Part shown: positions 47,270 to 50,638 of the stretch, piece after piece | Numbering within the stretch: the stretch's first letter is position 1 | How the letters are laid out: each line of letters begins with the position of its first letter | DNA from: Gammaproteobacteria bacterium | GTDB lineage: Bacteria > Pseudomonadota > Gammaproteobacteria > HK1 | NCBI GenBank assembly: GCA_021773795.1 | Contig: JAJFJT010000016.1 | Coordinates: 1-64,000, forward strand | Length of the DNA: 64,000 nt | Direction: 5' to 3' | Position numbers and translations under genes: made by a program | Notes under the pieces: generated by a model | Seen by the model: only the letters and a program-made list of their open reading frames with translations | What the model was told of the DNA's origin: nothing | The model's database searches: none

Positions 47270-48682
47270 CTAAGCCTTAAGCAGCTTGCGCACGGCAGAT
47301 GTTGCCGTAACTTTCCCGTCGCTGCAGTAAGCCTCGTGGTTTTCCTCCACGTGCTGTAGTACATAGCGATAGTTGATCATTAGCCCGACACCATTTTTCA
47401 GTCCGCGTTCTGAGATATCGGCAAGCCAGTTGATGCGCTCGATGCGAGCGCCGTTGGAAAGGTGAAAGTGAGCTACGCGATCCCGGGTACCCGCTCGCCC
47501 GCGCTCATTGAGGAGATAATGCGCTGCCAGCGGCATTATCATCGCCTCAAGTGCCTTTGCCGTTTGTTCGTCGCTGGGCCAATCGGGCAGAGCCAGCAAG
47601 CTTTGAAGTGCGCTAACGGTATCTTCTGCCCGCGCCAGTTCACGAATGCGGCGGCCGTCACTGGTCCCAATTAATGGATCCAGGTTTTTGTTGGCTTGTC
47701 CATCCAGCCATTTGCGAAAGCCGGGCAGGGGCGACAGGGTGGCGAAGTTTTTCAATTGTGGCAGGTCACGGGCCAGATCACGGGCGACACGCTTGATCAG
47801 AGTGTTGCCGAAACTGATGCCCGCCAGTCCCGGCTGGCAGTTGGAGATGGAATAGAAGATAGCGGTATCAGTGGCCTCGGCCTCCAGTGCCGGTGTTTCG
47901 CTATCCAGCAGGTTCTGGATGTTATCTGCCAGCCCATGTACCAGTGCTACCTCGACAAAAATAAGTGGTTCTTCGGGCATGTTGGGATGAAAAAAGGCAT
48001 ACAGGCGCCGGTCTGAATCGAGGCGTTTCTTCAGGTCATCCCAGGAATCGATGGCGTGCACCGCTTCGTATTCAATCAACTTTTCCAGCAAGGTCGCCGG
48101 GCTGTCCCAGGTAATTTGTCGCAGGGTCAGAAAGCCCACATCGAACCATGAGGCAAGCCGGGCGCTCAGCTCCTCGTCCAGCATGGCGAGTTCTGGGTTG
48201 CTGCGGGCAAAGCGACGCAGCTCACCACGTAAATCCACCAGAAACTTGATGCCGTCATCAAGGGCATTGAAGAGGCCCAAGAGGCGGATTCTTGGAGCTA
48301 TCAGGCTTGCACGCAGGGCACTTTCAGCTTCTTGCTGTGTCTTTATATCTGCCGCACTCTGATAGTTTTCGATGTTCGCTTCGAGCTTGCTCTGATCCAC
48401 CCCATAATCCTGCGCCAGCACCTCCAGGAAACGCTGCCGGCCTTCAAGATTGAGTTCCAGGTAGGCCTCCCCCAGATGCGCAGCGCGTGCCCGTGCCGAG
48501 ACCTCTCCACCGCGGGCCTCCAGGCAGGCATCGATCTGGTGGCGGAGTTGCTTGATGTCGCTGGCACTGAGTTCGGGGCTGAAGCGGGTATGCGGTGGAC
48601 CGTAGCTGGTACCACGCCAAGCCCGGCGAAAACGCCGCAGAGTGCGCTCCAGCAAGCCGTTACCATTATTCCGTGAATCCAT
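47270..48682 (-). CDS. Malonyl-CoA decarboxylase
   Basis: Decarboxylates malonyl-CoA to acetyl-CoA. The 470 residues match the bacterial/animal MCD family: an N-terminal helical domain (about 40-200) with NIENYQSAADIKTQQEAE, then a GNAT-fold catalytic domain with RRLYAFFHPNMPEEPLIFVEVAL, the catalytic serine region FYSISNCQPGLAGISFGNTLIKRVA, and VAHFHLSNGARIERINWLAD, containing the catalytic histidine, followed by GLMINYRY. There is no mitochondrial or export signal. The start codon ATG (48680-48682) lies inside a 9-bp target duplication of an adjacent MITE-like element, whose terminal repeat provides AGAGG seven bases upstream. Confidence 0.94.
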   Translation of the reverse strand: MDSRNNGNGLLERTLRRFRRAWRGTSYGPPHTRFSPELSASDIKQLRHQIDACLEARGGEVSARARAAHLGEAYLELNLEGRQRFLEVLAQDYGVDQSKLEANIENYQSAADIKTQQEAESALRASLIAPRIRLLGLFNALDDGIKFLVDLRGELRRFARSNPELAMLDEELSARLASWFDVGFLTLRQITWDSPATLLEKLIEYEAVHAIDSWDDLKKRLDSDRRLYAFFHPNMPEEPLIFVEVALVHGLADNIQNLLDSETPALEAEATDTAIFYSISNCQPGLAGISFGNTLIKRVARDLARDLPQLKNFATLSPLPGFRKWLDGQANKNLDPLIGTSDGRRIRELARAEDTVSALQSLLALPDWPSDEQTAKALEAMIMPLAAHYLLNERGRAGTRDRVAHFHLSNGARIERINWLADISERGLKNGVGLMINYRYVLQHVEENHEAYCSDGKVTATSAVRKLLKA

Positions 48683-48687
48683 AAGGG

Positions 48688-48822
48688 CACCTCTAAAAAT
48701 ACAATATTCGTCGCAATATGGTGTTTCTCGTAAAAAAGTTTCGCTTACATATCAAACAGTTGCTGCGCGCAACTTTTTTAACATGCCTTGTGTTGCCTGG
48801 AAACTTAAATTTTTAGAGGTAC
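48688..48822. mobile_element. 135-bp MITE-like element with 9-bp target duplication
   Basis: Terminal repeats CACCTCTAAAAAT (48688-48700) and ATTTTTAGAGGTAC (48809-48822) are inverted with one outer mismatch. The flanks carry an exact 9-bp direct repeat, CCATAAGGG, at 48679-48687 and 48823-48831. An inner perfect 10-bp inverted repeat (TAAAAAAGTT at 48731-48740, AACTTTTTTA at 48771-48780) is nested inside. No coding sequence. It separates the fused ETF gene from the malonyl-CoA decarboxylase gene, and its removal leaves the latter's ATG nine bases after the ETF stop. Confidence 0.82.
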
Positions 48823-48835
48823 CCATAAGGGTGCC

Positions 48836-50638
48836 CTATTCGTTATCCGGGTCAGAGGGAAGCAAGTCTGCCAGTGCCTCGGTCAGTGGCGCTATTAGCT
48901 CGCGCCAGTCCGCTACCATGCCGATATCTGCAAACTCAAAAATAGGTGCCTCCTCATCCGTGTTAATTGCCAGCACGGTACCGGCATTGCGTATTCCCGC
49001 GCTGTGGGTGAACTTGCCGCTCAATCCCAGGGCCAGATAGAGCCGCGGGGCAATGGAGCGTCCGGTAATGCCCAGTTGGCGGGACCGCGGCTGCCACCCC
49101 CGATCCGTGACCTTGCGGGTGGCTGCAAGTTCCGCACCCAGCACCTCCTGGAGTTCCTCAAGTTCATCGTATTCGTCAGGCGGAACTCCCATGCCCACAC
49201 CGATGACGGCCTCCGCATTGATCAAAGCGTTAACCTCGTCATTACGAGTACGTCGATGAATGGAGACCCGGGAATTTGTCGCCATGACCTGTTTCTTGAT
49301 CCTGGCGGTGGCCTTGCGCGGGCGGAGCAAGGGCAGGGCGCCCGGTCGCACCGTGGCCATCTGTACAGGAGATGTACATAAAATTTCTGCTGCCAGCATG
49401 CCAGAAAATGCAGGCTTCCACGCCACCAGGCGACCCTCCCTGACTTCAAGCGCAATGGCATCACCGGTTAGCCCCGCCTGTAGCCGGGCGGCGATGCGCG
49501 AGGCCACTTCCCGGCCCCATTGAGTAGACGGCAGGATGATTGCCCAGGGACTATGGTTGCCGGCCCAGTCGCTCACCGCATGGGCGATATCCTCTTCTAC
49601 ATCACTGCCGTGCAGATGTATGGCCCGGTCAACGCCCCATCCGCCCAGCAAGCCAGGCGCCATTTTTTCAGCCACGAAGGCCCTGACTTCGCCACCGATC
49701 TCTGCCGCCAGCAAGGCCGCAGTACCACAGCACTCCTGGCTCGTTCGTGTTTGCTCTGGCTCCAGTACTACCACGACGGATAGCTCTTCCGATTGCTGGG
49801 CGGGCACCTGTTTTGTTGCATCCGGCGATGGCTCTGCGAACAAATCGCGGTGCCCCAGCATGTCTACCAGCTGCTCTATCTGCTCCTCAACGGGGCCTTT
49901 GAGTATCGCCGGATTTCGTTCCAGCGGAATCGTTCGCGAGCTTCCCACCCGGGTAGGGCTGCCGGCGGCACCCCATGTTCCGGCACCCAGAGCCACGGCA
50001 TCGAGGATGGAAATGTGCTGCTCCAGTGCGCTGATCCACTTCTCTCTGGGGACCTTGCAGGGGGCGCACAGGCGCTCGGCCACCGACAGTACCGCAGGCA
50101 GGCTAACCGAGGCATCCACCCAGCCATCGTCGTGCTCGCAGCGCACCCTGAGTCGCTTGTCATTAAGTTCCAGCTTTCGTACCGGGCCGAGGAACGGGAG
50201 CTCCAGCAATTCCGCCAGTTCCGGCCCCACTTGCCCGGTGTCTGCATCCAGCGAGTTGCGTCCTAGCAAGATGAGGTCAAAGACCCCCTGTAGCCTGATT
50301 GCTGCCAACAGGGTACGTGCGGTGGCCAAGGTGTCGGCACCGGCAAAGGCCGGATCACTGAGTAGTATCCCGGTATTGGCTCCCCAGGCGAGCGCTTCTT
50401 TCAAGACATCTTTGGCTGAAGCCGGACCCATGGTGATGACGGTACAGTGGCCCTTGCTGGCCCGGGCAAGCTTCACCCCCTGGGCCACCGCACGCCGGCA
50501 GTAGGGGTTCATCTCCAGTGCCACTCCCACACGCACCAAGTGCCCATCCTCGCCGAGGCTTATGCCCTCGAGGGCGGGGATTTGTTTCACCAGTACGGCG
50601 ATGCGCAGGGGCTTGAGGTCGTCTGTTTCAGAAAGCAT
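48836..50638 (-). CDS. Electron transfer flavoprotein, beta and alpha subunits fused in one polypeptide
   Basis: A 600-residue protein that combines both ETF subunits. Residues about 10-260 are EtfB-like: PLRIAVLVKQIPALEG, DGHLVRVGVALEMNPYCRRA, LKEALAWGANTGILLSD and LILLGRNSLDADTGQVGPEL. Residues about 290-600 are EtfA-like, with WAIILPSTQWGREVASRIAARL, TVRPGALPLL and the FAD-binding RSIAPRLYLALGLSGKFTHSAGIRNAGTV followed by INTDEEAPIFEFADIGMVAD. Separate etfB and etfA genes are the norm, so the fusion is notable. It presumably carries electrons from an acyl-CoA dehydrogenase to the quinone pool. It precedes malonyl-CoA decarboxylase in the same orientation. Confidence 0.88.
   Translation of the reverse strand: MLSETDDLKPLRIAVLVKQIPALEGISLGEDGHLVRVGVALEMNPYCRRAVAQGVKLARASKGHCTVITMGPASAKDVLKEALAWGANTGILLSDPAFAGADTLATARTLLAAIRLQGVFDLILLGRNSLDADTGQVGPELAELLELPFLGPVRKLELNDKRLRVRCEHDDGWVDASVSLPAVLSVAERLCAPCKVPREKWISALEQHISILDAVALGAGTWGAAGSPTRVGSSRTIPLERNPAILKGPVEEQIEQLVDMLGHRDLFAEPSPDATKQVPAQQSEELSVVVVLEPEQTRTSQECCGTAALLAAEIGGEVRAFVAEKMAPGLLGGWGVDRAIHLHGSDVEEDIAHAVSDWAGNHSPWAIILPSTQWGREVASRIAARLQAGLTGDAIALEVREGRLVAWKPAFSGMLAAEILCTSPVQMATVRPGALPLLRPRKATARIKKQVMATNSRVSIHRRTRNDEVNALINAEAVIGVGMGVPPDEYDELEELQEVLGAELAATRKVTDRGWQPRSRQLGITGRSIAPRLYLALGLSGKFTHSAGIRNAGTVLAINTDEEAPIFEFADIGMVADWRELIAPLTEALADLLPSDPDNE

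Follow-up and report, generated by a model that had tools for sequence, protein, structure and literature searches.

A high-copy IS5-type MITE at the start codon of a malonyl-CoA decarboxylase gene and the proposed replacement of its native Shine-Dalgarno sequence

Structure of the insertion

The window, that is, the whole stretch of 64,000 nucleotides analysed here, carries on its minus strand a gene for an electron transfer flavoprotein (ETF) fusion protein and, downstream of it, the malonyl-CoA decarboxylase gene (mcd). The ETF stop codon is separated from the mcd start codon by an insertion with inverted-repeat ends, as the preliminary description of this locus had recognized. The features of the region are as follows.

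47270..48682, minus strand: malonyl-CoA decarboxylase gene (mcd), 470 codons; Pfam PF05292 (E 9.6e-105) and PF17408; start conserved in two congeners
48681..48684, no strand: first ATAA of the target site duplication (TTAT when read on the coding strand), which overlaps the start codon of mcd; exact over 4 bp in 30 of 46 copies, longer in none
48685..48824, no strand: IS5-type MITE copy, 140 bp; multi-copy in the genome, 91.5% identity to a 141-bp consensus (46 copies)
48685..48700, plus strand: mcd-side terminal inverted repeat GGGCACCTCTAAAAAT, from the sequence and the genome-wide recurrence of the end pattern
48688..48694, minus strand: Shine-Dalgarno-like AGAGGTG, formed by the transposon end; predicted anti-Shine-Dalgarno (anti-SD) duplex -9.5 kcal/mol
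48809..48824, minus strand: etf-side terminal inverted repeat GGGTACCTCTAAAAAT, on the same evidence as the mcd-side repeat
48825..48828, no strand: second ATAA of the target site duplication, with the same 4-bp support as the first
48836..50638, minus strand: electron transfer flavoprotein beta-alpha fusion gene, upstream of mcd; Pfam PF01012 and PF00766

The element starts with GGGCACCTCTAAAAAT, closes with ATTTTTAGAGGTACCC and has ATAA on both flanks; its two ends differ by one mismatch. On the coding strand it closes as TTTTTAGAGGTGCCC-TT-ATGG, with AGAGG from the transposon end 7 nt ahead of the mcd ATG, which is also how it had been described. This ATG (48682-48680) is the first in-frame start codon, and the frame is closed by a stop within the element. 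No Rfam family was matched in the region. The dimensions originally given for the element, in contrast, had to be changed. It had been taken to be 135 bp long, with 13-bp ends and a 9-bp target duplication, CCATAAGGG. We rejected this duplication, which consists of the 4-bp ATAA and element bases that match the flank; its extra CC and GGG match because the element itself starts with GGG and finishes with CCC. Since the duplication is only 4 bp, the element is 140 bp long and has 16-bp ends.

The family in this genome and the junction in congeners

At least 40 copies of the element, with 83-100% identity, were found in the 2.56-Mb genome (G000), and a few more were recovered through the end pattern, in agreement with the mobile element that had been proposed. 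The 15-bp end pattern, with at most two mismatches, occurs at 104 sites in the genome versus 27 for a reversed control. Because the complete element is found again 40 or more times, at 83-91% identity, and the end pattern exceeds its control, the element cannot be attributed to chance. A consensus of 141 bp was built from 46 copies, 43 of them from this genome and three from the congener G001, and the copies are 86-97% identical to it. Over these 46 copies, the target duplication is an exact 4 bp in 30 and a 3/4 match in eight more, while an exact duplication of 5 to 10 bp was found in none; the target consensus is C-TTAA-G. The elements are short and non-coding with terminal inverted repeats, nearly all intact copies being 137-142 bp, and they are dispersed with target site duplications, as MITEs are. 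They have the same 15-16 bp ends (GGGCAYCTCTAAAAA) as IS5-family insertion sequences (the NCBIfam NF033581 transposase group), and the same 4-bp target duplication at TTAA-like sites. Unlike the full insertion sequences, the element in the window has no transposase.

The same-genus genome G002 lacks the element, and G001 contains three copies. Of these, two share their sites with copies of G000 (L040/L054 and L041/L056), and therefore the family is older than the G000/G001 split and has expanded in the present lineage. Two short sequences in this genome also deserve mention. At L017:1479-1494, ATAA-GGGCACCC-ATAA contains an 8-bp remnant of both element ends between 4-bp repeats, as excision or an extreme internal deletion would leave. 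At L042 (G000:C21:8179-8213), a pair of ends that face each other and are just 35 bp apart seems to be the element in a minimal, inverted-repeat form.

The etf-mcd junction is uninterrupted in both congeners, which further bears out the proposed insertion, and most of the other start sites considered below also have element-free counterparts. The junction reads GAATAAGGCGCTT-ATGGATTCACGG in G001 and AGCTAGCGACAAGACCACTT-ATGGCTTCACGG in G002, and the mcd ATG is conserved in both. In G001, where GAATAAGGCGCTT directly precedes the ATG, a TAAGG overlaps the ETF stop codon. As a result of the insertion, AGAGGTGCCC of the element separates the old flank from the TT-ATG of mcd. A weak AGGG had been assigned to the junction before insertion; given the TAAGG of G001, this probably reflects decay after the insertion.

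Recurrence of the element at gene starts

In nine copies of this genome, an end is followed at a distance of exactly 2 bp by an ATG (AGAGG-N5-NN-ATG; hereafter +2), and eight of the nine start clear genes. The nine are listed below.

L001, ATG at +2: mcd
L005, ATG at +2: protein kinase
L014, ATG at +2: cysE
L015, ATG at +2: response regulator
L022, ATG at +2: ABC-2 permease
L026, ATG at +2: DsrE-like
L027, ATG at +2: ThiL-like N-terminal fragment
L033, ATG at +2: 73-aa ORF without known domain
L037, ATG at +2: branched-chain amino-acid-type permease

When only those ATGs were counted that lie 0-29 nt outside the 86 ends and open an ORF of at least 100 aa, eight had the +2 spacing, two had +8 and six had other spacings. 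With the element disregarded, each of the eight clear genes lies -1 to 25 nt behind a gene of the same orientation. Element-free orthologous junctions exist in one or both congeners for L001, L005, L014, L015, L022, L026 and L027, and in G002 for L033; the start codons of the orthologs are conserved there, the L022 start not being exactly aligned. At L015, the congener has AAGGAG-TGACCA-ATG, and in the present genome the AAGGAG has been left upstream of the element. The remaining site, L037, has an unrelated spacer in G001 instead. This spacer, which is about 160 bp long and immediately precedes position 1501 of G001 L110, lies at a livH-livM-like junction and ends in AGAGGTTCCTAAATCTT-ATG; a decayed copy of the element within it was considered and rejected, as the alignment was no better than with shuffled sequence. 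The ThiL-like gene at L027:1047-1493 has 149 codons and covers only the N-terminal part of ThiL, and a sequence that appears MutH-like by eye follows in another frame.

The ends of the element are present in 23 of the 369 genomes of the class, and six of these, including the present one, have at least 27 sites. One genome from another family, G337, harbors 40 or more MITEs, most of which have clean 4-bp duplications. We used its target matrix to calculate the number of copies expected at +2, with CDS interiors excluded, and obtained 1.7 of 43, so that eight or more have P = 2.8e-4; with a matrix from the other copies of this genome, P = 6.9e-4. Both values are approximate because the gene calls came from a simple codon-usage score.

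Species genomes from many phyla contain the pattern TTTTTAGAGGTGCCC-NN-ATG at 113 or more sites. Outside this genome, 23 of 103 NN-ATG sites open an ORF of at least 100 aa, compared with 17% of random ATGs, and therefore most such sites reflect target preference. Individual cases at gene starts nevertheless occur in other genomes: dxs starts behind a 141-bp element with a TGAT duplication, coaE behind a 180-bp element with a TTAT duplication, a response regulator gene behind a 198-bp element, and, in G337, ispE behind a related end. For obgE, which like dxs, coaE and ispE is a gene of essential type, and for ntrC, the end ahead of the start has no good partner in the vicinity. An enrichment of such solo ends, in which the rest of the element would have been deleted, at gene starts elsewhere was rejected (6/19 versus 14/53, no difference).

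Strength and accessibility of the Shine-Dalgarno-like sequence

The 16S 3' end is not present in the assembly, and pairing energies were therefore predicted with an assumed anti-SD sequence. On this basis, the mcd site scores -9.5 kcal/mol with the element, at a proper distance from the ATG, versus -4.0 kcal/mol in G001 and -0.7 kcal/mol in G002. The median is -5.5 kcal/mol for 50 genes of the window and -3.6 kcal/mol for random positions. For most of the nine copies, predicted pairing is better with the element than in the congeners; in two of nine, the new site is no better than the old (L015 about equal, L037 weaker).

Accessibility gives a different picture. The predicted cost of opening AGAGG on an etf-mcd read-through mRNA is 10.2 kcal/mol for mcd and 6.6-16.9 kcal/mol over the nine copies, compared with 2.5 kcal/mol at the native G001 site. 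For an mcd transcript that begins 16 nt within the element, it falls to 1.8 kcal/mol. However, no sigma-70-like site above shuffled controls was found in the consensus or in the mcd copy, in either direction. A weakened hairpin in the start-proximal copies was also considered and rejected, since it is not relaxed there. The preliminary description had called the element a 'portable RBS'. The idea gains from the roughly seven further operon genes at which the element stands in the same register, but the donated sequence can no longer be regarded as already 'working', because it is predicted to pair with the other end of the element on the read-through mRNA and no promoter-like site was seen inside.

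Interpretation

We propose that a high-copy, non-autonomous IS5-family MITE inserted at this site in this lineage only, and that its AGAGG replaced the native Shine-Dalgarno sequence of mcd; we would put the probability of this reading at roughly two in three. Comparison of the genome sequences shows a multi-copy family with 4-bp duplications, uninterrupted sites in congeners and a retained mcd ATG, and likewise that the native site has been displaced and a sequence of predicted high Shine-Dalgarno strength substituted; its use in translation is what we infer. The MITE would have inserted at the target C-TTAT-G, which spans the mcd start codon. With ends of the sequence TTTTTAGAGG(T/C)(G/A)CCC and a target compatible with an ATG 2 bp beyond them, such an insertion would shift the native Shine-Dalgarno sequence 140 bp away and leave AGAGG 7 nt before the ATG. 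The substitute may keep the downstream gene of the operon translatable, which would explain why insertions survive at tight operon junctions mainly in this one register. On a read-through mRNA, the two inverted repeats would pair and mask the site, so that translation of mcd is probably lowered, or dependent on opening or cutting of the hairpin, rather than simply preserved.

Could the preference of the transposase alone account for these positions? An IS5-type enzyme favors sites similar to C-TTAA-G, to which TNATG conforms, and AGAGG would then be coincidental and have no role in the survival of insertions. The motif does raise the expectation at +2 severalfold, from 0.45 to about 2 of 43, most NN-ATG sites beside ends in other genomes are not gene starts, and G337 shows only two start cases among about 36 copies examined. 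Still, eight or nine were observed where about 2 are expected even with the motif allowed for, and all eight clear cases are at tight operon junctions, which makes preference as the sole cause distinctly unlikely. It is also unlikely, in our judgement, that the hairpin simply hides the Shine-Dalgarno sequence on the etf-mcd mRNA, mcd being lowered or silenced in a cell that tolerates this or can dispense with the gene. The folding energies and the lack of a promoter-like site agree with such a loss, but mcd still has an undisrupted frame of 470 codons that encodes conserved domains, and full-length elements also precede ispE, dxs and coaE in other genomes. These three genes are usually essential, and the full-length copies ahead of them suggest adequate translation behind the element. 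We consider it improbable that mcd transcripts start inside the element from an outward promoter and so keep the Shine-Dalgarno sequence free. Such a start would leave the site nearly free in the predictions above, and an outward promoter is present in another MITE, MITEAba12 (PMC6382973); against it stands the search for promoter-like sites, which covered sigma-70 only.

Beyond the proposed replacement at mcd, the family as a whole may combine ends that carry a Shine-Dalgarno-like AGAGG with a target motif that sets an ATG 7 nt downstream, so that it lands on start codons in operons and takes over initiation, with the hairpin acting as a switch. This wider idea is tentative, and we are more inclined to doubt it than to accept it. 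If it were true, the spread of the family would rewire the translation of operons in many bacteria.

Relation to known MITEs

MITEs are known to supply their neighbors with promoters, protein-binding sites and RNase sites. Donation of a Shine-Dalgarno sequence, repeated and exact in register, at genes within operons would add a further route by which they alter expression, and it would help to account for the survival of a high-copy element in a compact genome. The main new result is the recurrence of ends in the same register at operon gene starts. The open-access papers searched yielded no relevant prior work on these end sequences or on ribosome-binding sites in MITEs, and a description elsewhere is possible.

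MITEAba12 of Acinetobacter is likewise a short, IS-derived, multi-copy MITE that affects its neighbors, with some copies at gene starts; it differs in its 9-bp duplications and in donating promoters and N-terminal codons (an MQQS fusion) instead of a Shine-Dalgarno sequence (PMC6382973). The Correia/NEMIS elements of Neisseria and the ERIC elements of enterobacteria resemble the present element as hairpin MITEs that are cotranscribed with their neighbors and affect mRNA, but act via promoters, IHF sites and processing by RNase III or E; excerpts of the two sources contain no case of ribosome-binding-site donation by them (PMC10969869, PMC2229807). A 2024 review of prokaryotic MITEs lists several effects on expression, and 'ribosom', 'Shine' and 'start codon' do not occur in its main text (PMC10969869). 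Fusions of ORFs and processing by RNase III and RNase E are discussed in an earlier review (PMC2229807).

Possible parent transposons

Full elements with the same ends occur in other genomes. In G166, a 1254-bp element with these ends encodes an IS5-family transposase, and G337 contains several full insertion sequences of this type, about 1335 bp in length. No related match for a mobilizing transposase was found in G000, G001 or G002. The genome has three PF01609 matches, all rejected as the parent, since none has the element ends. The assembly consists of 36 contigs, and therefore a transposase copy may lie at a contig gap. In G337, the IS5-family transposase is split across two adjacent frames at L117, L120, L123, L125, L129 and L130; the split is identical in many copies and looks like programmed frameshifting.
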